Source: Skermanella mucosa (lineage in GTDB: Bacteria > Pseudomonadota > Alphaproteobacteria > Azospirillales > Azospirillaceae). Taken from it: a DNA stretch of 64,000 nucleotides. The stretch spans positions 4,143,001-4,207,000 of the forward strand of contig NZ_CP086106.1 of assembly GCF_016765655.2 (NCBI RefSeq), in the 5' to 3' direction. Positions 5,191 through 15,231 of the stretch are shown piece by piece. A program made the translations under genes and the position numbers. Every line of letters starts with the position of its first letter. Within the stretch, counting starts at the first letter, position 1. The notes beneath the pieces are model-generated. The model searched no databases, was not told the origin of the DNA, and worked only from the letters and a program-made list of their open reading frames with translations.

Positions 5191-6792
5191 TCACGCCGCC
5201 GGCAGCAGTTCCTTCGTGTACAGGGTCTGCCCGTCCAGGTCCTTCAGGGTCACCAGCATCACGCCGTCCTCGCCGATGTCCACTTGGCCGAAGAACTGCA
5301 TCCCGGCCGAGGGAGCCAGGTTGGATTGCCCCTCCGGCGGCGCCTTCACGTACATCAGCTGCGGGCCGAAGGTGTCGTCCAAGGGGTTCGGGCCGAAGGT
5401 GCCGGCGTTCAGCGGGCCGGAGACGAATTCCCAGAACGGCTCGAAATCCTGGAACTTGGCCTTGTTCGGGTCATAGAAATGAGCGGCGGTGTAGTGGACG
5501 TCGGCGGTCAGCCACACCGTGTTGCGGATGCCGTTGCGCCGGATGAAGCTCAGCAGGTCGGCGATCTCCAGCTCGCGGCCCCGCGCCGGGCCGTCGCCCT
5601 GGGCGATCGCCTCCGAGCCGGTCTTGTCCTTGCCGTTGTCGTAGACGACCAGGCCGATCGGCATGTCGGCCGCGATCACCTTCCAGGTCGCGTTCGAGGC
5701 CAGCAGGGCCTGCTTGAGCCAGCGGATCTGCTCGGACCCCAGGATGGCGGTCTCCGGCCCCATCTCCTCCTGGAGGTTGGCGGTATTGGGGCCGCGATAG
5801 CTTCGCATGTCGATGCGGAACACGTCGAGATGCGGGCCATAGGAGAACTTGTTGTAGATCCGGTCGCGGTTTTCCGGATCATGCCGGATCGGCATGTATT
5901 CCAGGAACGCCCTCATGCCGTTGGCGGCCAGCACGGCGGCGCTCTTCTCCTTGTAGCGCTGGTCGGCGTCCATGCGCTTTTCCCAGTACCAGTTGTTGGT
6001 CGCCTCGTGGTCGTCCCACTGGGCGAACATCGGCACCTCGGCGTTGAAGCGGCGCAGGTTCTCGTCCATCAGGTTATAGGCGTGGGCGCCGCGGAAATCG
6101 CCCAGCGTCTCGGCCACCTTGGACTTCGCCTCGGTCGTGACGTTCCTCCACACCCCGCCGCCCGGCAGTTCCTTGGTCTCGGGGATCGGGCCGTCGGCAT
6201 AGATCGTGTCGCCGGAATGGATGAAGAAGTGCGGCTCGGTCCGGCGCATCGCCTCGTAGATCCGCATGCCGCCGAAATCGGGGTTGATGCCGTATCCCTG
6301 CCCGGCCGTGTCGCCGGACCACACGAAGCGGACCCGGCCATTGCTCGGCGCGGTGCGGAACTGGCCGGTCACCGGCTCGCTGAAGCTCTTGAGGTCGGAC
6401 AGGTCCTGGAAGCTGACGCGGTAGAACACCCGCTGGTCGGCCGGCAGCCCGGACAGGTCGATCCGGGCGGTATAGTCGCTGTCGGTGACCGCGACCGGAC
6501 CGCTGAAGCGCTTGGCGTTCCTGAAGCTTTCGGTCGTCGCGACCTCGACGATCATCCGGGCCGGCCGGTCGGCGCGGCTCCAGACGACCGCCCGCCCGCC
6601 TGAAAGATCGCCGGACTGGACGCCGTAGGGCATGGCGATGCGGCGGCTGTCGGCGGTGATGATGGCCGGGGCCTGCGCCAGCGCCCGCCCGGCCGCCGAC
6701 GCCGCGACGAGGAGCCCGCCGCCGGCCAGTGCCGAATTGTACAGGAACGAGCGGCGGGTAACCCACCGTTGGGGCTCGGGCAACTTGGACAT
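5191..6792 (-). CDS. phoD: Alkaline phosphatase D (PhoD-like) metallophosphatase, Tat-exported
   Basis: The 533-aa product begins with a twin-arginine signal (TRRSFLYNS, then a hydrophobic stretch ending AGRALAQA), so it should be folded and then exported to the periplasm. An N-terminal Fn3-like domain (about 45-140) precedes the PhoD metallophosphatase core with VWSGDTAGQG, IHSGDTIYAD, QWDDHEATNNW and the late histidine segment WLTADVHYTAAHF. PhoD enzymes hydrolyse phosphomonoesters and diesters using Fe and Ca. The ATG at 6792 has a GGGAGAA ribosome site 8 nt upstream; a start 27 codons earlier lacks one. It is transcribed alone, downstream of the stress operon with an 88-nt gap. Confidence 0.88.
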   Translation of the reverse strand: MSKLPEPQRWVTRRSFLYNSALAGGGLLVAASAAGRALAQAPAIITADSRRIAMPYGVQSGDLSGGRAVVWSRADRPARMIVEVATTESFRNAKRFSGPVAVTDSDYTARIDLSGLPADQRVFYRVSFQDLSDLKSFSEPVTGQFRTAPSNGRVRFVWSGDTAGQGYGINPDFGGMRIYEAMRRTEPHFFIHSGDTIYADGPIPETKELPGGGVWRNVTTEAKSKVAETLGDFRGAHAYNLMDENLRRFNAEVPMFAQWDDHEATNNWYWEKRMDADQRYKEKSAAVLAANGMRAFLEYMPIRHDPENRDRIYNKFSYGPHLDVFRIDMRSYRGPNTANLQEEMGPETAILGSEQIRWLKQALLASNATWKVIAADMPIGLVVYDNGKDKTGSEAIAQGDGPARGRELEIADLLSFIRRNGIRNTVWLTADVHYTAAHFYDPNKAKFQDFEPFWEFVSGPLNAGTFGPNPLDDTFGPQLMYVKAPPEGQSNLAPSAGMQFFGQVDIGEDGVMLVTLKDLDGQTLYTKELLPAA

Positions 6793-6845
6793 ATCGCGGA
6801 TTCTCCCGTTCCGGTTTATTGGTCCGCGGAAGCTATCCGGTACCC

Positions 6846-6852
6846 ATGACAG
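6846..6852 (-). promoter_or_regulatory. Possible PHO-box half-site upstream of the phoD-like gene
   Basis: On the minus strand CTGTCAT, the exact PhoB half-site consensus, lies 54 nt upstream of the phosphatase start and is preceded by an A run. A second half-site at the expected 11-nt spacing is poor, so control by phosphate starvation is only a suggestion. Confidence 0.25.
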
Positions 6853-6880
6853 TTTTTCATGCGAGCCCGGCACAAAGGGC

Positions 6881-7435
6881 CTAACACTGATGGCTGACGT
6901 CCGGTTGTGATCGCGGGATTCCGCCGCCCGGTCCGCGATACCGCAACTCCGGCCGTGCCGCGATCATGTCGGAGTACAGCCAGGCCATCCGGTCGATGTA
7001 CCAGAACTTGCCGCCGATCACGAGCGTCAGGCCGAGCGCCGTCGGCCAGACCGCGAGGCGCGCCACACCCCACACGACGACAAGCCCCCCGGCCGCGGTG
7101 GCGGCGTTCAGCAGATGGGGCACCAGCCGGTGATGTTCCGGGACGGGAATGGTGTTTCGCAGGGTCCAGAACCGCTCGCCGAAGACGCCCCGGGTGATCC
7201 AGGCGCTGTCGGACCGCGCCGGCGGAAACGCGTGTGGGTTGAGCCAGGTCCAGGCCAGGGCCGCCGCGACCGGCAGCAGCGACCACCAACCGATCCAGGC
7301 GCGGCTCCAGAACGCCAGGACCAGGAGCGGCAGGACGGTGACGAAGCGGGTCCAGCCGCTCCAAGGGTTGGCATGGCGAGCCCAGGCCGCGTCGTCGAGG
7401 GCGAACAGGGCGGCGATCCGCCCCTCGATGGTCAT
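6881..7435 (-). CDS. DUF6653 family membrane protein
   Basis: A 184-aa protein with several hydrophobic segments (around WTRFVTVLPLLVLAF, WWSLLPVAAALAWTW, GGLVVVWGVARLAVW and LGLTLVIGGKFWYI) and the conserved-looking RVPEHH/IPVPEHH and DRMAWLYSDM motifs of the DUF6653 family, whose function is unknown. The ATG at 7435 has a GAGGGAG ribosome site. The in-frame start at 7456 would overlap the kinase upstream by 11 nt. It is the last gene of the phyR-rsbRST operon, and its role there is not evident from sequence. Confidence 0.75.
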   Translation of the reverse strand: MTIEGRIAALFALDDAAWARHANPWSGWTRFVTVLPLLVLAFWSRAWIGWWSLLPVAAALAWTWLNPHAFPPARSDSAWITRGVFGERFWTLRNTIPVPEHHRLVPHLLNAATAAGGLVVVWGVARLAVWPTALGLTLVIGGKFWYIDRMAWLYSDMIAARPELRYRGPGGGIPRSQPDVSHQC

Positions 7436-7445
7436 GCCGGCTCCC

Positions 7446-8627
7446 TCAATCACCATGCAGCGGCATCGTGACGGTCACCCGGGTACCGCCGCCCGTCCCG
7501 CCATGGCCGTTCGAGCCCTCGATCTCCAGCACGCCTTCGACCCGCGTCGCCAGGGCGCGGATCAGGTTCATGCCCAGGCTGTCGGTCGCCTCCTCCGGCA
7601 TGCCCTTGCCGTTGTCGGTGACTTCGAGCCTCAGGCGCTCTTCCGGCAGGACGGTCAGCGACACCCGGATCTCGCCCCGCGCACCGTCCGGGAAGGCGTG
7701 CTTGAAGGCATTGGTCACGATCTCGTTGATCAGCAGGCCGAGCTGGATCGCCATGTCCAGCCCCAGCGCGACGTTCTCCGTCTCGACCATCAGCTCCGGC
7801 CCGTCGCCCCGCGCGGTGAAGGAGGTCCGCAGATGGGCGCACAGGTCCCGGACATAGCCGGAGAGATCGACCCGGGCCAGGTCGTCGGACTGGTACAGCT
7901 TCTCGTGGACGATGCTCAGCGAATGGATGCGGCTGCGAACGTCGTCCAGCTCCTGGCGGACCAGCGGGTTGGTGGACTTGCGCGCTTTCAGGCTGACCAG
8001 GCTGGAGATGATCTGGAGGTTGTTCTTGACCCGGTGGTAGACCTCCTTCAACAGCACTTCCTTCTCGACGACGCTGGCGCGGAGCGCCGCGTTCGCCTCC
8101 AGAAGCTCCTCCTCCCGCTGGCGCAGGTCGTTCAGGCTGCTCAGCAGTTCCTGGTTCTGGCGCTGGACCTCCTCGACCGGGTCGAGCGGCTGCTGGCGGG
8201 CCAGTTCGTCCATCAGCTTGTTGATGAATTCCGGGACCGCCATTCCCAGCGGCTTGGACAGGATCCGGGTCAACCGGACCGTGGTCCCGTCCCCGGACGT
8301 CTCGATGTCCAGCCGGTCCATCAGGCGCCGGGCGCCGAGCAGGCCAAGCCCCATTCCGGTGCGCGAGCGGTAGCGGCCGGCCAGGATGTCGTCCAGTTCG
8401 GCGATGCCCGGCCCCCGGTCGCCGACCTCGATCACCAGGGCCACCTTCCCGGCGATCTCCTGGATGCGGAAATCGGCCTTGCCGCCGTTGGCATAGGCGT
8501 AGGCGTTGCGGCAGACCTCCGACACCGCCGTGGCGATGCGGGTCTGGTCCTGGACCTCGAACCCCATCCGGTCGGCGACCAGCCGCGCCCGCTGCCGGGC
8601 GTGGACGATGTCCCGGTCATGGCGCAC
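7446..8627 (-). CDS. Sensor histidine kinase with RsbW-like ATPase domain and HisKA_2 kinase core
   Basis: The product is about 393 aa. Residues 1-125 form an RsbW/RsbT-like GHKL domain (VRHDRDIVHARQRARLVAD, TAVSEVCRNAYAYANGGKA, GDRGPGI, GMGLGLLGARRL). A coiled-coil linker (about 165-210) leads to a HisKA_2 dimerisation domain with the phospho-acceptor in YHRVKNNLQIISSL and a second HATPase domain (NEIVTNAFKHAF, VTDNGKGMP, LGMNLIRALA). HisKA_2/HWE kinases are the class known to phosphorylate PhyR. The start is uncertain: GTG at 8627 is the first standard codon in frame after the preceding gene, though coding potential begins near 8654 at the TGA of that gene. No periplasmic domain exists, so input must be cytoplasmic, probably via the stressosome. 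Confidence 0.85.
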   Translation of the reverse strand: MRHDRDIVHARQRARLVADRMGFEVQDQTRIATAVSEVCRNAYAYANGGKADFRIQEIAGKVALVIEVGDRGPGIAELDDILAGRYRSRTGMGLGLLGARRLMDRLDIETSGDGTTVRLTRILSKPLGMAVPEFINKLMDELARQQPLDPVEEVQRQNQELLSSLNDLRQREEELLEANAALRASVVEKEVLLKEVYHRVKNNLQIISSLVSLKARKSTNPLVRQELDDVRSRIHSLSIVHEKLYQSDDLARVDLSGYVRDLCAHLRTSFTARGDGPELMVETENVALGLDMAIQLGLLINEIVTNAFKHAFPDGARGEIRVSLTVLPEERLRLEVTDNGKGMPEEATDSLGMNLIRALATRVEGVLEIEGSNGHGGTGGGTRVTVTMPLHGD

Positions 8628-8650
8628 ATGGACCGTGAAGAGCGGCCAGG

Positions 8651-9670
8651 TCAGGGGTCTCTGGTCTTCACTACGACGATCAGGTTGTCGTCCCGGACCC
8701 GCTTGAAATCGCGGTACAGCACGGCCGCGATCATCGTCGGGTGTCTTGTTGCCAGCCCCGGGTAGCTGTCGATATCCCATTTAGTGCTCAAACCGTCCGA
8801 ATGGAAAACCGCCAGCAGATCGCCACCGTAAGCATACTCGTATTCCTTCACCTTCGACATATTATGCCCGACGACGCCGTTTTGCGACACCGTTCGGGTC
8901 TGCCCGTCCCGCCAGCGGAAAAATCCCGCGATGTTACCCACCCCGGCGAACCGGAGCCGGCGTTCGACCGGTTCGATCCGCACCACGGCGACCGCCGCGC
9001 CGCGCGTCCCGCGCAACGCCCGATGCAGATCCTCGACCAGCGGCTCGGGCATCCGTTCCTTCGATTGCCTGAAACCTGCACGGGCGGCGTCGGCCGCGTC
9101 GGCCGCGCCGAGACCATGCCCGAGACCGTCACACAGCAACAACAGCGTAGCGCCGCGATCGGTCACCCGGACGGACCAGGTATCGCCGCTCACCGCCTCC
9201 CCGATGCGCGGAAGGCAGACCGCCCCCACCTCCAGCCCGGGAAGGTCGGGCGCCGGCCGGCAGCCGCCCGCCCGCACGCCGCAGACGATCGCGGTGCCGT
9301 TGCCCGGCTTGGAATAGATATCGAAATGGTCGGACTGGCGCCGGATCGCGCCCAGCCCGGTGCCGGGGCTGTCGCCGCTGGTGACGCCGTCCCGCAGGCA
9401 GTCCTGCACGTTGGCCATGCCCGGACCGCTGTCCAGGGCGATCACCGTGACCTCGCCGCTGGTGCCCGACGACCGGGCGTCCAGCAGGATTTCCCCGCCG
9501 CCGCCGTGGCGAAGGATGTTGGTGGCGGCCTCGGTCACCACAAGTGCCAGGCGGGCGCATTCCTGTTCGCCGAGACCGGCCGGGGACGCCAGCTGCACCG
9601 CCTTGCGGCGTGCCTCGGCGACCTGGGTCTGTTCCCGGATGGGGACCGAAACTACGGCCGTTCCGTCCAT
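8651..9670 (-). CDS. rsbX: RsbW-like ATPase fused to SpoIIE/RsbX-type phosphatase
   Basis: The 339-aa protein has an N-terminal GHKL domain (residues 1-135: VVTEAATNILRHGGGGEI, LDSGPGM, PGTGLGAIRRQSD) joined to a PP2C/SpoIIE-like phosphatase domain (about 145-335: LLLLCDGLGHGLGAADAADAA, AVAVVRIEP, GVGNIAGFF, FHSDGLSTKW). In B. subtilis stressosomes RsbX removes phosphate from RsbS and RsbR to reset the complex. The position after rsbT and the phosphatase metal-site Asp residues (CDGLG, HSDGL) support that role here. It overlaps rsbT by 19 nt and ends as the kinase begins. The gene symbol is by analogy. Confidence 0.8.
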   Translation of the reverse strand: MDGTAVVSVPIREQTQVAEARRKAVQLASPAGLGEQECARLALVVTEAATNILRHGGGGEILLDARSSGTSGEVTVIALDSGPGMANVQDCLRDGVTSGDSPGTGLGAIRRQSDHFDIYSKPGNGTAIVCGVRAGGCRPAPDLPGLEVGAVCLPRIGEAVSGDTWSVRVTDRGATLLLLCDGLGHGLGAADAADAARAGFRQSKERMPEPLVEDLHRALRGTRGAAVAVVRIEPVERRLRFAGVGNIAGFFRWRDGQTRTVSQNGVVGHNMSKVKEYEYAYGGDLLAVFHSDGLSTKWDIDSYPGLATRHPTMIAAVLYRDFKRVRDDNLIVVVKTRDP

Positions 9671-10089
9671 GATGCGACTTTCACTATGGTTCCTTCGCCC
9701 GGCGCGGACCGGATCTCGAACTCCTTGCAGAGGCGCTTGGCACCGCTCAACCCGAGCCCGAGCCCGCCGCCCGTGCTGTAGCCATCCTTCAACGCCAGGG
9801 CGATGTCGGCGATTCCCGGCCCCCGGTCGCTGAAGATCATCTCGACCTTGCGCTTCGACATCCGGCCGACGATGGCGATCCGCATCTCGCCCCCGCCCCC
9901 GTAGTCCAGCGTGTTGCGCGCCAGCTCGCTGGCCGCGGTGACCATGCGGGTGGTCTCGATCTTCGAGGCGCCGATGGTCGCCATGGCTGCGGCGGCCACC
10001 CGCCGGACCCGGCTGACGTCGGCTCCGGTCTGGATCGGGATCACCTCGCCGTCGGCGGCTCCTCCCTCGTGCCCCGGCTCAAGCCTCAT
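9652..10089 (-). CDS. rsbT: RsbT-type serine/threonine kinase (switch protein)
   Basis: This 145-aa protein is a single GHKL ATPase domain: AASELARNTLDYGGGGEM (N box), FSDRGPGIADI (G1) and STGGGLGLGLSGAKRL (G2). The length and the motif NTLDYGGGG match RsbT, which phosphorylates RsbS and RsbR and on stress leaves the stressosome to activate a downstream partner. It overlaps rsbS by 11 nt and the following gene by 19 nt, implying translational coupling. An anti-sigma factor of the RsbW class is the alternative, but the R-S-T gene order argues for RsbT. Confidence 0.85.
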   Translation of the reverse strand: MRLEPGHEGGAADGEVIPIQTGADVSRVRRVAAAAMATIGASKIETTRMVTAASELARNTLDYGGGGEMRIAIVGRMSKRKVEMIFSDRGPGIADIALALKDGYSTGGGLGLGLSGAKRLCKEFEIRSAPGEGTIVKVASWTERP

Positions 10090-10480
10090 GGAGGCGCGCG
10101 GCCTCCTCGGCGGCGCCCCGGCGGATCAGCTCCATGCCGCGGTCCACGTCCAGGGCGGTGCGGACACCCTGGAGCGACATGCCCAGCTCGACCAGCGTGA
10201 TGGCCACCGCCGGCCGCATCCCGACGATCACCGTGGAGGCGTCAAGGATGCGGGCGATCGCCGAGATGTTGGCGAGCATGCGGCCGATGAAGCTGTCCAC
10301 CACGTCCAGGGCCGAGATGTCGATCAGGACGCCCTTGGCGTGGGTCTTCGCGATCCGCTCGGCCAGATCGTCCTTCAGCGTCATGATCATCCTGTCCTCC
10401 AGGTCCACCTGGATTGTCAGGAGCAGGCAGTCGCCGATCTGGAAGATCGGGATGCGGTTCGGCTCGAGGAAATGGGTCAT
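10079..10480 (-). CDS. rsbS: RsbS stressosome scaffold, single STAS domain
   Basis: The 133-aa product is almost all STAS domain. The segment DISALDVVDSFIGRML followed by GMRPAVAITLVELGM closely resembles B. subtilis RsbS, including the serine (in VVDSFIG) that RsbT phosphorylates. RsbS and RsbR build the icosahedral core that holds RsbT inactive. The ATG at 10480 (MTHFLEPNRIPIFQIGD) is the natural domain start; a longer reading would run into rsbR. The gap to rsbR is 17 nt. Confidence 0.88.
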   Translation of the reverse strand: MTHFLEPNRIPIFQIGDCLLLTIQVDLEDRMIMTLKDDLAERIAKTHAKGVLIDISALDVVDSFIGRMLANISAIARILDASTVIVGMRPAVAITLVELGMSLQGVRTALDVDRGMELIRRGAAEEAARLHEA

Positions 10481-10497
10481 GTCGATCCTGCCGCCGC

Positions 10498-11355
10498 TCA
10501 CTGGCCCGTGAAGGTGACGCCGGTGCGCTTCAGCGCGTGGGCGAAGGCGCTCTGCAGGTCGGCCTTGGTCGCGACCTGGGGCAGTTCCACGCCCAGATGC
10601 ACGATGGTCTGGGCAATCTGCGGCCGGATGCCGCTGATGATGCATTCAGCCCCCATCAGCTTGGCCGCGGCGGCCGTCTTCAGCAGGTGCTGGGCGACCA
10701 GGGTATCGACCGTGGGCACGCCGGTGATGTCGATGATCACGATCTCGGCCTTGCTTTCGACGACGGCTTCGAGTAGATTTTCCATTACGATCTGCGCGCG
10801 GGAGCTGTCCAGCGTGCCGATCAGGGGAAGCGCCACGATGCGATCCCAGAGCTGCACCACCGGGGTTGACAGCTCCAGCATCTCCTGCTGCTGGCGCTGG
10901 ATGATATCCTCCCGGCCGCGCAGATAGATGTCATTGGTGTACAGGCCCAGCTTGTCGAGCAGCACGGTCGCGGACCAGGCCTCTTCGACCAGGATCTGCG
11001 GGTCGTCCTTGTACTGGTCGCGCAGGCATTCGAAGATCGGCTGCTTGAGCGCCAGGATGAAGGTGGCGGTTTCCGTCGGGGTGAAGCCGTGATCGACCCG
11101 GTAATTTGTGACCTCGGTCAGCATGTCCCGGACATCCTGCCACTGGTCGCTTTCGATGTCGAAATTGACACCGTTCTTGGTCGCTGCGGTCAGATGGGTC
11201 AGGAAGCTGCGCGACTGGCGGCGGATCTCCGCTTCCCGCATCAGGTCGGCGCGAAGCACACCGACATCGGATTGGGCTGCGATCCAGTCGGTCAGGATAC
11301 GGTCCTGGTACCGGCTCAGGAGAGCCGGGAGCTTGCTGCCGGAAGAGTCGGGCAT
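10498..11355 (-). CDS. rsbR: RsbR stressosome sensor (RsbRD_N plus STAS)
   Basis: This 285-aa protein has an N-terminal helical RsbRD-type sensor domain (about 1-150: LLSRYQDRILTDWI, LTAATKNG, DHGFTPTETATFIL) and a C-terminal STAS domain (about 165-280). The STAS part keeps both positions that are phosphorylated in RsbR paralogues: Thr in GVPTVDTLVAQ and Thr in IRPQIAQTIVHLG. The N domain is the kind replaced among paralogues to sense different stresses; no haem or FMN motif is obvious here. It lies 15 nt after phyR. Confidence 0.88.
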   Translation of the reverse strand: MPDSSGSKLPALLSRYQDRILTDWIAAQSDVGVLRADLMREAEIRRQSRSFLTHLTAATKNGVNFDIESDQWQDVRDMLTEVTNYRVDHGFTPTETATFILALKQPIFECLRDQYKDDPQILVEEAWSATVLLDKLGLYTNDIYLRGREDIIQRQQQEMLELSTPVVQLWDRIVALPLIGTLDSSRAQIVMENLLEAVVESKAEIVIIDITGVPTVDTLVAQHLLKTAAAAKLMGAECIISGIRPQIAQTIVHLGVELPQVATKADLQSAFAHALKRTGVTFTGQ

Positions 11356-11370
11356 CTTTTCTTCTTCTCG

Positions 11371-12174
11371 TCAGTTCATCTTCTGGGGCGGATGCACCGC
11401 CAGCGCCTGACCGATCGCGGTTCGGAGAACCTCCGGCTGAAACGGCTTGGCGATCAGGAAAGCCGGCTCCAGCTGTTCGCCGGTCAGCAGGCGTTCCGGG
11501 AATCCGGTGATGAAGATCACCGGCAGGTTGGTCGAGCGCAGGATCTTCTGGACGGCCTTGATGCCGCTGTCGCCGCCCTTCAGCTGGATGTCGGCCAGGA
11601 TCAATTCCGGCGCGGTCTCGCGGGCGAGCCTCAGGGCCTCCTCCTCGCGGGCAGCGGAACCGCAAACCGTATGGCCCATGTCGGTCACCAGACCGGCGAT
11701 GTCCTCGGCGATCAGGGGTTCGTCCTCGATGATGAGGACACGGACGGAGGTCTGCTTGGACAGTTCGGCCCGGGCGGATTCCAGCTCGACGCGGATTTCC
11801 TCGGTGGTGACGTTCAGGATGCGGGCCGCCTCGTCGAAGGAAAATCCTTCGAGCGAGATCAGCAGCAGCACCTGCCGCTGGCGCGGCGGCAGCCGGCCGA
11901 CGCCCTGGATCACCTTGGTGCCCGGGGTACCTTCGGGAAGGTCGGGCACCGCTTCCGGGAACGTTTCGTCCACCAGGGACCAGACCTCATGGAACAGCGC
12001 GAACAGCTCAAGCCGGATATTGCCGGCGGGATCGATGCGGTCGGGCTCTGCCAGATAGGCTTCGAGGCACACGCGGACATACTGGTCGCCGCGATCCTGG
12101 GACCCCAACAGGGCTCGGGCATAGCGCCGCAAATAGGGAAGAAATTTCACAATCTCTGCGGAGGATTCCGGCAT
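11371..12174 (-). CDS. phyR: PhyR-type general stress response regulator
   Basis: The 267-aa protein has the diagnostic PhyR order: an N-terminal ECF-sigma-like domain (about 1-135, sigma2-like FLPYLRRYARALLGS and sigma4-like LPPRQRQVLLLISLEGFSFDEAARIL) and a C-terminal receiver (about 145-262; acidic pocket IIEDEPLIAED, phospho-Asp in LILADIQL, FITGFPE and Lys in IAKPF). Phosphorylated PhyR binds the anti-sigma NepR and frees EcfG. No nepR or ecfG gene is next to it. It is the first gene of an operon that continues through rsbR, rsbS, rsbT, the phosphatase and the HisKA_2 kinase, an arrangement that ties it to a stressosome. Confidence 0.93.
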   Translation of the reverse strand: MPESSAEIVKFLPYLRRYARALLGSQDRGDQYVRVCLEAYLAEPDRIDPAGNIRLELFALFHEVWSLVDETFPEAVPDLPEGTPGTKVIQGVGRLPPRQRQVLLLISLEGFSFDEAARILNVTTEEIRVELESARAELSKQTSVRVLIIEDEPLIAEDIAGLVTDMGHTVCGSAAREEEALRLARETAPELILADIQLKGGDSGIKAVQKILRSTNLPVIFITGFPERLLTGEQLEPAFLIAKPFQPEVLRTAIGQALAVHPPQKMN

Positions 12175-12444
12175 TCTGATCTCAACGGTCCATCATGAAG
12201 CTGATCTGTCCGCCTTGTGTCCGGCGGGGTTCGATTCCGAAAGTTCCAGATAACATATTCGCGTATCCGCCGGATCGGGGGTATTCGGCCTAAGCCCTTT
12301 CGCAGCGGATATTGGTCGCGATCCGACCGGCAACGCCTCAGGTCATGAAAGGTTGCAGCCACGCGCGAATTGACACGGGCTCCGCCGGAGAGCAATGGTC
12401 GGAACGCCCGCCCCAGCCGCCCCGCAGCCAGCGAGAAAGCCGCC

Positions 12445-13170
12445 TTGCCAATCACTTCCGAGGTCGACCTCTACGATCCGGTGAAAGCCTTCCTCGAAGC
12501 CCAGGGGTACGATGTCAAAGGCGAGGTTCGGAGCTGCGACCTGGTCGCCGTCCGCGCCGGCGAGCCGCCCGTTTTGGTTGAGTTAAAGCTGCGGTTCTCG
12601 TTGTCGCTGGTTCTCCAGGGAGTCGACCGGCTGGCCCTGTCGGACCGCGTCTACCTCGCGGTTCCCCGGCCCGCCGGCCGGCGGGCGACGGGGCCGAACG
12701 CGAACGACGGCAATGTCCGCAAGCTCTGCCGCATGCTGGGGCTCGGGCTGCTGACGGTCGATCCGGCAGCCCGAGCCGGCCGGCAGGTGGAGCTCGTGAT
12801 CGAGCCGGCGCCCTACCGGCCGCGGGTGAACGCCAAGCGCGCCCGGCTGCTGCTGAAGGAGCACGGTCGGCGGCTGGGCGATCCCAACCGCGGCGGGTCG
12901 AGCAAGGTCAAGATCATGACCGCATACCGACAGGAGGCCTTGCGCTGCGCGGCCCTGCTGAAGGCGAACGGCCCCATGGCCGTCGCCGCGCTGCGCCGGG
13001 ACGGCGACGCTCCGGGCGCCGCCGGCATCCTCCAGCGAAACGTCTATGGCTGGTTCGAGCGGGTCAGCCGCGGCACCTACCGGCTGACCGAGGAAGGACT
13101 GCGCGGGCTGGAGCAGTTCGCGCCGGAAGAATCGGCGGCGGAACTGGTCGAACAATCCGCGCCGCGGTGA
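12445..13170 (+). CDS. DUF2161 family protein, PD-(D/E)XK-like
   Basis: About 241 aa. The N-terminus (VDLYDPVKAFLEAQGYDVKGEVRSCD and then VLVELKLRFS) matches DUF2161, a family with a nuclease-like PD-(D/E)XK core in which D, ExK are visible. The C-terminal part (AYRQEALRCAALL, GWFERVSRGTYRLTEEG) looks like a winged helix. TTG at 12445 with GAGAAAG 6 nt upstream gives the usual family start; TTG at 12370 is possible. The biochemical role is not established. It lies divergent from phyR, with 270 nt of intergenic DNA between. Confidence 0.78.
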   Translation: MPITSEVDLYDPVKAFLEAQGYDVKGEVRSCDLVAVRAGEPPVLVELKLRFSLSLVLQGVDRLALSDRVYLAVPRPAGRRATGPNANDGNVRKLCRMLGLGLLTVDPAARAGRQVELVIEPAPYRPRVNAKRARLLLKEHGRRLGDPNRGGSSKVKIMTAYRQEALRCAALLKANGPMAVAALRRDGDAPGAAGILQRNVYGWFERVSRGTYRLTEEGLRGLEQFAPEESAAELVEQSAPR

Positions 13171-13212: not shown

Positions 13213-15231
13213 ATGGGCAGCACGGATTTCGCCGAAAAGCGCCGGGTCATGGTGGAGCGCGACATCGTGCCGCGAGGGATCGACGACGCCGGCGTGATCG
13301 CCGCCCTGGGCCGGGTCCCGCGGGAACTCTTCGTCCCCGACTATCTGGCGGAGCTGGCCTACGACGATTCGCCGCTGCCGATCGAGCAGGGCCAGACGAT
13401 CTCGCAACCCTTCGTCGTCGCCCTGATGATGCAGGCGGCCGAACTGGTCCCCGGCGCCAAGGTGCTGGAGATCGGCACCGGCTCGGGCTACTCCGCCGCC
13501 ACGCTGGCGGCGATGGAGTGCGAGGTTTATTCGATCGACCGCCACGCCGCCCTGGTGGAGGCTGCCCGGACACGGCTGGAGCGGGCCGGCTGTGCGGGCA
13601 TCCACCTGCGGGCCGGGGACGGTACCCTGGGCTGGCCGGAGGCGGCGCCGTTCGACGCCGTCATCGTGACCGCCGGCGGGCCGCGCCTGCCGGAGCCGCT
13701 GTCCCGCCAGCTCAAGATCGGCGGGCGGATGATCATGCCGGCCGGCGCGGAAGCCGGCGGCCAGCACCTGATCCGGCAGCGCCGCACCGGCGAGGACACG
13801 TTCGCCGAGGAGGATCTCGGCCTGGTCGCCTTCGTGCCGCTGATCGGCGCCCATGGCTGGCCGGAAACGACCCGCACCGAGGCCAGGCGCCGCTCCCCGG
13901 CCCTGGCGCCCGAAGCCGCCGGGCGGATCCGAGACGCCGCCGAACCGCTGCCCGACGTGGACGACGAACGGTTCGGCGTGCTGTTCGACCGGATCGCCGA
14001 TGCCCGGGTCGTGCTGCTGGGCGAGGCGACCCACGGCACTTCCGAATTCCATCGCGCCCGCGCGCGGATCACCGAGCGGTTGATCGCCCGGCACGGCTTC
14101 ACGATCGTGGCGGTCGAGGCCGACTGGCCTGATGCCGAACAGATCAACCGGTACGTCCGCAATCGGCCTCCCGGTGTGTCCGACGACGCGGCCTTCTCGC
14201 GCTTTCCCGCCTGGATGTGGCGAAACGAGGAGGTCGCCACCTTCGTCGACTGGCTGCGCCGTCACAACGACGGGGTTTCGGAGCCCCAGCGGCGGGTCGG
14301 GTTCTACGGCCTGGACCTCTACGGCCTGAACGGGTCCATCGCCGCCGTGCTGGACTATCTGGAAAAGGTCGATCCGCAAGCCGCCGGGATCGCGCGCGAA
14401 CGGTACGGCTGCTTGGCACCGTGGCGGCCGGCACCCGAAACCTATGGCCATGCGGCCCTGGCCGGCGGCTTCGACTCCTGCGAGAACGCGGTGCTGGAGG
14501 TGCTCCGGAACCTGCTCGACAGGCGGCTGTCCCGATTGGCCGCAACCGGGGACGAGGGTTGGCTGGGCGCTTGGCAGAACGCCCGGCTGATCGCTTCAGC
14601 GGAGGAGTATTACCGCACGCTCTACCATGGCGCCACCAACAGCTGGAACCTGCGAGACCGCCACATGTTCGAGACGCTCCGGTCGGTGATGGAGGCCCGC
14701 GGACCTGAGGCGAAGGCTGTGATCTGGGCCCACAACACCCATGTGGGCGACGCCGCGGCCACGGAGATGGGCCGCCGAGGACAGGTCAACCTGGGCACTC
14801 TCTGCCGCGAGGCGTTCGGCACCGGGGCGGCGCTCGTCGGGTTCGGGACCGACCGCGGAACAGTCGCCGCAGCGTCCAGTTGGGGTGGGCCGATGGAGGT
14901 GATGGAAGTGCCGCCGGCGCACCCGGACAGCTACGAGTATCTGTGCGCCCGCACCGGCAAGCCGCGCTTCCTGCTCGACCTGCGGCCCGGCCGGAACGCG
15001 GCCCTGGCCGGGGACCTGAAACGGTTCCGGCCGGAACGGGCGATCGGGGCGATCTATCGCCCCGGGGCCGAGCGGGAGAACCACTACTTCCAGGCCTCCT
15101 TGCCCGGCCAGTTCGATCTCTACGTCTGGATCGACCGGACCTCCGCGATCCGGCCCCTGGCGCCTACTGCACCGCCGCTTGGCCGAACAGGAAGTTGGGC
15201 AGGAACAGCGACACCCACGGCACATAGGTGA
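13213..15231 (+). CDS. Fusion: protein-L-isoaspartate O-methyltransferase plus erythromycin-esterase-like hydrolase
   Basis: Residues 1-205 of this 672-aa protein are a Pcm domain: FVPDYLAELAYDDSPLPI, GQTISQP and the SAM site VLEIGTGSGYSAA. Residues 250-645 are an erythromycin esterase family domain, with LLGEATHGTSEFHRAR, VAVEADWPDAEQINRYV and WAHNTHVGDA supplying the expected Glu/His residues. Pcm repairs isoaspartyl damage in proteins; this branch of the esterase family is of unknown substrate, and resistance to macrolides should not be assumed. A GGGAGG ribosome site precedes the ATG. The last 27 residues or so (after FDLYVWIDRT) are Pro/Thr/Gly-rich and are read through the antisense of the convergent dctM 3' end, a 68-nt overlap. 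Confidence 0.88.
   Translation: MGSTDFAEKRRVMVERDIVPRGIDDAGVIAALGRVPRELFVPDYLAELAYDDSPLPIEQGQTISQPFVVALMMQAAELVPGAKVLEIGTGSGYSAATLAAMECEVYSIDRHAALVEAARTRLERAGCAGIHLRAGDGTLGWPEAAPFDAVIVTAGGPRLPEPLSRQLKIGGRMIMPAGAEAGGQHLIRQRRTGEDTFAEEDLGLVAFVPLIGAHGWPETTRTEARRRSPALAPEAAGRIRDAAEPLPDVDDERFGVLFDRIADARVVLLGEATHGTSEFHRARARITERLIARHGFTIVAVEADWPDAEQINRYVRNRPPGVSDDAAFSRFPAWMWRNEEVATFVDWLRRHNDGVSEPQRRVGFYGLDLYGLNGSIAAVLDYLEKVDPQAAGIARERYGCLAPWRPAPETYGHAALAGGFDSCENAVLEVLRNLLDRRLSRLAATGDEGWLGAWQNARLIASAEEYYRTLYHGATNSWNLRDRHMFETLRSVMEARGPEAKAVIWAHNTHVGDAAATEMGRRGQVNLGTLCREAFGTGAALVGFGTDRGTVAAASSWGGPMEVMEVPPAHPDSYEYLCARTGKPRFLLDLRPGRNAALAGDLKRFRPERAIGAIYRPGAERENHYFQASLPGQFDLYVWIDRTSAIRPLAPTAPPLGRTGSWAGTATPTAHR

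Follow-up and report, generated by a model that had tools for sequence, protein, structure and literature searches.

A stressosome operon in Skermanella mucosa with a probable output through PhyR

In the 7.84-Mb genome of Skermanella mucosa, a member of a genus of soil bacteria, a set of stressosome genes shares an operon with phyR and a histidine kinase gene. It is read here as a stressosome that has the general stress response of Alphaproteobacteria for its output, by way of the operon kinase, PhyR, and then NepR/EcfG; this reading, made from sequence, is given a probability of about 0.6. The operon lies within a 64,000-nt stretch of contig NZ_CP086106.1 (forward strand, positions 4,143,001 to 4,207,000), referred to below as the window. 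Its six genes, phyR, rsbR, rsbS, rsbT, a two-domain rsbX, and the kinase gene, are consecutive and in that order, all on the minus strand, with gaps of 15 and 17 nt followed by overlaps of 11 and 19 nt. An earlier note on this DNA had described such an operon, with tiny gaps or overlaps, and both the coordinates and the Pfam and NCBIfam domains agree with it (Table 1). All five Skermanella genomes compared keep the operon, so the six-gene arrangement is not a chance one, and a linkage peculiar to this strain, for which the note had proposed a conservation check, is ruled out.

The stressosome core

The operon has the features by which a stressosome is recognized: a STAS-only RsbS with an equivalent of S56, an RsbR with a sensor N-terminal domain and a STAS domain carrying two phosphorylatable residues, and a GHKL switch kinase, RsbT, encoded next to rsbRS. 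In alignments to solved stressosome chains, RsbS S63 falls at Listeria S56 and RsbR T218 at T209, while the T175 position is occupied by S184, which from its sequence should still be phosphorylatable. S56 of RsbS and T175 and T209 of RsbR are the phosphosites named in the available part of PMC6614362. The earlier note's statement that both proteins keep these positions is therefore right for RsbS S63 and RsbR T218 but needs amending at the T175 position, where the residue is Ser184 and not Thr. RsbX has the phosphatase motifs DGLGHG, SDGL, and DD, with D181, D292, and D327, which we take to be the metal-binding Asp residues. RsbT sequence alone gave no PDB matches at E ≤ 0.01. Scans of the operon proteins, the kinase among them, likewise gave no RsbU_N match with E ≤ 0.01, which rules out an RsbU arm inside the operon.

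An operon of this kind might instead be a vestigial or repurposed partner switch, not sensing stress and acting outside the general stress response. The Ser at the RsbR T175 position would fit such a history. All of the examined residues are intact, however (phosphosite positions, N-box, phosphatase motifs, His, and Asp), and the operon has been maintained in every Skermanella compared, so this explanation is very improbable.

RsbT-like domains on RsbX and the kinase

The classes of the RsbX-like phosphatase and the HisKA_2 kinase were given correctly in the earlier note, which did not mention that each has an extra domain. In both proteins an RsbT-like HATPase_c_2 domain comes first, ahead of the SpoIIE phosphatase in RsbX and of the HisKA_2-HATPase_c core in the kinase. 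A midpoint-rooted tree was made of 65 such GHKL domains from several phyla (22 from RsbT, 22 from the RsbX N-terminus, and 21 from the kinase N-terminus, representing 22 of 98 loci). Each of the three kinds is confined to a single side of a branch, with supports of 88, 99, and 89, respectively. RsbT of three other Skermanella groups with the RsbT of other cassettes, all 22 being on the same side of the branch with a support of 88. Because the tree separates each kind, RsbT, RsbX-N, and kinase-N are old and distinct kinds within the cassette. A sister relationship between the kinase domain and RsbT was considered and dropped, since three groups and a midpoint root cannot give the closest pair.

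In an alignment of the window's kinase N-terminal domain with 37 of 56 domains passing a score filter, E48, N52, and the glycines of the G1 and G2 boxes are invariant (38/38) and D81 is found in at least 90%. Identity to the window's domain is 43–54% for 35 of the 37 others and 79–81% for the remaining two, both from Skermanella. An AlphaFold model of the domain has a mean pLDDT of 92.2, and in a comparison with the PDB its matches at ranks 1–15 are SpoIIAB, RsbW, and UsfX entries; on this model, the domain is predicted to fold like these partner-switch kinases. A second histidine kinase CA domain at this position is ruled out, the CckA CA domain appearing only at rank 19. Kinases of the SpoIIAB, RsbW, and UsfX type bind STAS partners, and several of the matched PDB entries are, by title, complexes with such a partner.

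The presence of its own RsbT-like domain suggests that the kinase is gated directly rather than by an RsbU-like adaptor. The earlier note had proposed that a PhyR kinase replaces the RsbU-RsbV-RsbW arm. The lack of an RsbU_N match in the operon agrees with this. Tentatively, the kinase N-terminal domain would be clamped on the RsbR-RsbS STAS shell, instead of RsbT or beside it, and released upon RsbS phosphorylation, with the HisKA_2 core as the link to PhyR. It is rather unlikely that free RsbT is the messenger, binding or phosphorylating the kinase as RsbT does RsbU in Bacillus, with the kinase's RsbT-like domain serving as a dimerization or competitor module. The kinase has no RsbU_N at E ≤ 0.01, and its N-terminal domain retains the ATP-site E48, N52, and glycines throughout the alignment; the tree, taken as unrooted, gives no sister pair among the three RsbT-like groups that would speak for either. 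By sequence, the gating step could be either the docking of the kinase through its RsbT-like domain or a contact between the kinase and free RsbT.

The kinase core and PhyR in the Alphaproteobacteria

The kinase core is of the HisKA_2 type and has the conserved His of the HisKA_2/HWE dimerization domain; this residue, H209, is invariant in all eight aligned fusions of an RsbT-like domain to such a core. The NCBIfam PhyK model gives 142 bits over residues 221–427 of a longer frame, against a cut-off of 750, so that by sequence the operon kinase is PhyK-like in its core and not PhyK. HWE/HisKA2 kinases are established in PhyR signaling, according to the available part of PMC12148442. The operon PhyR has a sigma-like domain and a receiver with a phosphoacceptor Asp (Asp195 by alignment), its best PDB match is 3n0r (3.7e-64), and with 309.7 bits against the PRK09191 cut-off of 240 it is the best of three homologs in the genome.

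The wider distribution was followed in an even draw of 385 alphaproteobacterial genomes, in which up to four first-look candidates per genome were scored for the fusion. RsbR was found in 14 of these (E ≤ 1e-20) and the RsbT-like/HisKA_2 fusion in five, namely two Skermanella and the genomes G175, G284, and G409 (E ≤ 3.3e-140, the next best being 1.8e-58). The G284 fusion ends at a contig end (model positions 1–302 of 397). All five fusion genomes have the rsbRSTX genes with the fusion in the stressosome operon, and a PhyR over the cut-off. In a set of 21 genomes, the fusion was found solely in the three other Skermanella. G175, G284, and G409 have the cassette and one PhyR each (E ≤ 1e-30, over the cut-off), located elsewhere; that of G409 is at a classical nepR-ecfG locus.

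A midpoint-rooted PhyR tree was based on 24 rows picked from 47 frames, a number of these frames being duplicates of one gene. The PhyRs of the four genera with the fusion (the operon copy of Skermanella and those of G175, G284, and G409) and one from G001 form a group with support of 100/100, separate from the PhyRs of the other genomes of the same family and from the two Skermanella paralogs. Eight PhyRs were aligned: the five that belong to this group read DIQL at the phosphoacceptor and carry a PERLLTG motif, and the three others read DLRL or DIRL and have no PERLLTG. The fusion kinases of Skermanella, G175, and G284 have cores that fall in a single clade (96/95), while that of G409 is a long branch; a common origin for the cores of every fusion is neither established nor rejected (p-AU 0.449). 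A separate PhyR-like stretch in the S. mucosa genome (C1:3704248-3704724, at L016 and L025) matches query residues 97–256 with one internal stop, and may be either a response regulator in decay or a separate one.

The cassette in other bacteria

An RsbR-alignment scan of 84,980 species genomes gave 80 loci that were kept, and the following counts hold among the matches listed. RsbS is present in 79, the two-domain RsbX in 69, and a gene with the RsbT-like domain and a kinase core in 66, but PhyR in just two, both Skermanella. At 17 of the 80, less than 4 kb is available after rsbR, so that absences there mean little. Pfam scans covered 64 of the 66 named kinases, two that end at contig ends being left out: 62 have a HisKA core and two, both from Skermanella, HisKA_2, with a receiver domain in 41. 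The Skermanella operon is a special form of an rsbR-S-T-X-kinase cassette found in many phyla. In two genomes of the same family, the kinase of the cassette is a HisKA-REC hybrid, and the stretch examined contains no phyR.

Several variants were seen. In G352 (L157:6086-7198) and Peristeroidobacter (L082:14344-15465), the stressosome kinase is followed by a separate reading frame that matches the HisKA_2 core, and the one in Peristeroidobacter is REC-HisKA_2 by Pfam; this arrangement is a possible intermediate wiring. At the cyanobacterial loci L088 and L151, the RsbX and kinase genes are on the strand opposite rsbRST, which shows that the genes can be divided between strands and still stay side by side. 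A second, different stressosome type occurs in several genomes of the same family as Skermanella (L066–L071); the two of these loci scanned with Pfam encode PAS kinases, and G015 carries both types.

The nepR-ecfG locus and candidate promoters

The earlier note had found neither nepR nor ecfG beside the operon, which was borne out: a candidate pair is located 2 Mb away. It consists of the single match to Pfam NepR above cut-off in the genome (26.8 bits, cut-off 25.7) and, beside it, an EcfG-like ECF sigma factor. The pair is present in all five Skermanella, so a lack of NepR and EcfG candidates in the genome is ruled out, and GGAAC-N16-CGTT is found upstream of ecfG in all five. The EcfG promoter consensus in the available part of PMC4814048 is GAAC-N16,17-C/GGTT. 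A second GGAAC-N16-CGTT (L026:7013) is located after nepR and before a gene that by Pfam encodes a PhoD-related phosphatase (L026:5467–6945), site and gene together being at about 2109466-2111012 of C1. Three other Skermanella have a similar site behind nepR (L170, L172, L174).

Upstream of phyR, two candidate elements were found (Table 1). In the GCAAC-N16-CGTT one, GCAAC, TTTC, and CGTTGCCG are invariant and at constant spacing in the upstream regions of all five Skermanella, and the two ends double as a GCAAC/GTTGC inverted repeat. Because it differs from GGAAC by one letter and has this inverted repeat, it is only a candidate promoter. As a regulatory element of phyR it is suggestive only, since of 500 mononucleotide shuffles of this stretch in the window, 19 score equally well. 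The GGAAC-N16-CGCC element is a weak EcfG promoter candidate by sequence. It is weak at L059 (14 of 25 letters, equaled by 127 of 500 shuffles) and was not found in S. aerolata, where the best stretch is elsewhere (13 of 25, 325 of 500 shuffles). Matches to GGAAC-N15..18-CGTT are at chance level in the window as a whole (three found, 1.6 expected), and scans for sigma-70 promoters and terminators gave nothing above chance.

Proposed pathway and its alternatives

In the proposed pathway, RsbR and RsbS would form a STAS particle which, in unstressed cells, may hold both RsbT and the output kinase, the latter docked through its RsbT-like N-terminal domain. Under stress, RsbT would phosphorylate RsbR (S184 and T218) and RsbS (S63), freeing the bound GHKL domains, and RsbX would later reset the particle. 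In the Bacillus/Listeria model, as given in the available part of PMC6614362, RsbT phosphorylates RsbR and RsbS and then leaves the particle. The kinase, freed or activated by this event, would autophosphorylate on His209 and pass the phosphate to PhyR Asp195; phosphorylated PhyR would then bind the NepR-like anti-sigma factor and so release EcfG. The earlier note's proposal that stressosome output is wired to the PhyR kinase is supported at the level of genomes, through the linkage in five of five Skermanella, the HisKA_2 core, the presence of the fusion in five of 385 genomes, and the single PhyR group to which those genomes contribute.

Several observations weigh against this pathway. Within the genomes compared, phyR is inside the stressosome operon only in Skermanella, the other three fusion genomes keeping it elsewhere. 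Skermanella has many other HisKA_2-type kinases (15 profile matches in G080, the fusion included) and two further PhyR homologs (264.6 and 235.8 bits, the second just under the cut-off of 240), so that neither the kinase nor PhyR is an exclusive partner. No RsbR or fusion was found in G001, which has a PhyR of the same group, so this type of PhyR does not need the cassette. Both the kinase core and the PhyR of G409 are long branches, their placement flagged as unsure by the tree program, and this makes the two groupings weaker. The NepR match is marginal (26.6–26.8 bits, cut-off 25.7), the same protein scoring with a zinc-finger anti-sigma motif, and the EcfG-like sigma factor is under every NCBIfam equivalog cut-off shown. 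There is no perfect EcfG promoter in the region upstream of the phyR operon. Finally, an RsbT-D1 interaction in Vibrio could not be shown by others, as stated in section 10 of PMC9237108 in the part available.

Some of these points would also fit shared regulation only, with phyR inserted into the operon and co-transcribed, its phosphate coming from other HisKA_2 kinases, and the operon kinase serving another regulator. The other kinases, the three PhyR homologs in the genome, and the position of phyR away from the cassette in G175, G284, and G409 all count in its favor. Yet the cassettes of PhyR-bearing genomes have the class of kinase core that serves PhyR, the Skermanella operon encodes no response regulator besides PhyR, and in the HisKA-type cassette of the two same-family genomes the last place is taken instead by a hybrid kinase that itself contains a REC domain. 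On balance, shared regulation alone is distinctly unlikely, and a stressosome with PhyR as its output is preferred.

If the kinase is itself clamped on the stressosome and released in this way, a Ser/Thr partner switch would be converted without an intermediary into phosphotransfer of the His-Asp kind. Once released, the kinase would feed ordinary two-component outputs in many phyla; in Skermanella and some few further Alphaproteobacteria its HisKA_2 core would link it to PhyR, and the general stress responses best known from bacteria, two in number, would merge into one pathway.

Coordinates and neighboring genes

Table 1. Features of the Skermanella mucosa stressosome operon and its surroundings, in window coordinates.
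Feature	Position	Strand	Evidence or remarks
phyR	11371-12174	minus	Pfam PhyR_sigma2 3.4e-22, PhyR_sigma-like, Response_reg 5.2e-15; NCBIfam PRK09191
rsbR	10498-11355	minus	Pfam RsbRD_N 4.6e-25, STAS 1.3e-14; PDB stressosome RsbR 5.4e-37
rsbS	10079-10480	minus	STAS-only core protein; PDB RsbS chains 2.2e-30, 3.2e-29
rsbT	9652-10089	minus	GHKL Ser/Thr switch kinase; Pfam HATPase_c 2e-11, HATPase_c_2 8.4e-9; N-box E55/N59
rsbX variant	8651-9670	minus	Pfam HATPase_c_2 2.4e-14 (N-terminal), SpoIIE 5.8e-8 (SpoIIE/PP2C phosphatase)
Output histidine kinase	7446 to about 8654	minus	Pfam HATPase_c_2 6.6e-23, HisKA_2 4.9e-25, HATPase_c 4.4e-27
Kinase, RsbT-like domain	about 8241-8654	minus	followed by a linker
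Kinase, HisKA_2 domain	about 7821-8045	minus	His209
Kinase, HATPase_c domain	about 7458-7748	minus	
DUF6653 gene	6881-7456	minus	Pfam DUF6653 1.5e-57; overlaps kinase end
PhoD-family phosphatase, next gene downstream	5191-6792	minus	Pfam PhoD 2.9e-93, scored on longer frame 5191-6873
GCAAC-N16-CGTT, candidate regulatory element upstream of phyR	12332-12356	minus	8/9 positions of GGAAC-N16-CGTT
GGAAC-N16-CGCC, second, weaker EcfG-like candidate	12223-12247	minus	17/25 letters as in own ecfG promoter (3/500 shuffles equal)

The start codon of the kinase is uncertain, the candidates being CTG at 8654, which overlaps the rsbX stop, a GTG, and ATG at 8627. The earlier note had drawn the system from position 6881, which is too wide: the DUF6653 gene at that end is missing from the other four Skermanella loci and is ruled out as part of the unit, so that the conserved unit is about 7446–12174. 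The simple gene caller made for this work and used at the relatives' loci misses some genes, and L159 was read from its ORF list. The PhoD-family gene is possibly co-transcribed with the operon; such a gene follows the operon in four of the five Skermanella, S. stibiiresistens having a GntR/UTRA regulator there instead. On the other side, a gene for a putative DUF2161 nuclease (12370–13170, plus strand) is divergent from phyR and adjoins the operon in all five. Beyond it, a single reading frame (13213–15231, plus strand) combines protein-L-isoaspartate methyltransferase and erythromycin-esterase-family domains.

Comparison with known systems

The earlier note knew of no described system of exactly this composition. 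A stressosome with a two-component output is already known from Vibrio vulnificus RSTX-D1-D2 (PMC9237108 and PMC10014275, in the parts available). Literature searches on PhyR in Skermanella, and on stressosomes or RsbT in connection with PhyR, EcfG, or the Alphaproteobacteria, gave no title or abstract opening that describes the pairing with PhyR; subscription literature, such as the Pane-Farre reviews of 2005 and 2017, was outside their scope. In the parts available of PMC4976288 and PMC3999984, "phyr" comes up as the name of the program Phyre2 and in connection with a separate mutant of phyR.

The targets of Gram-negative stressosomes and their way of signaling without RsbU are open questions in the field, and an RsbT-like domain on the output kinase, as in the cassettes of many phyla, offers a concrete and testable answer. 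The Skermanella form would join stressosome-SigB and PhyR-NepR-EcfG signaling, which have been treated as separate, and would make a soluble multi-protein sensor an input to PhyR.

Compared with the RsbRST-RsbUVW-SigB system of Bacillus and Listeria, the Skermanella operon has homologs of RsbR, RsbS, RsbT, and RsbX with the phosphosite positions kept (Ser at that of T175), but it has no RsbU_N match, its output is a histidine kinase with PhyR, and its RsbX has gained an RsbT-like domain. The V. vulnificus locus is similar in having rsbRSTX followed by a two-component kinase as the presumed output. It differs, according to the available parts of PMC9237108 and PMC10014275, in that its RsbR has a heme globin sensor and D1-D2 are predicted to act on cyclic-di-GMP; the same sources describe the RsbX of globin-type clusters as single-domain, unlike the two-domain RsbX of Skermanella. 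Gene content, the two-domain RsbX, and the RsbT-like kinase domain are shared with the widespread cassette of cyanobacteria, Burkholderiales, Acidobacteria, Planctomycetes, and others, although the Skermanella core is HisKA_2 and not the HisKA of 62 of the 64 listed, and no phyR was found in the listed loci from outside Skermanella. With PhyR-NepR-EcfG systems it shares a bona fide PhyR, a HisKA_2 core, and, elsewhere in the genome, nepR-ecfG candidates with an EcfG-type promoter, but phyR is apart from nepR-ecfG and the operon kinase would be under the control of a stressosome rather than a fused sensor domain. The modules are thus known and the proposed connection is new, the new element being the PhyR-class output.

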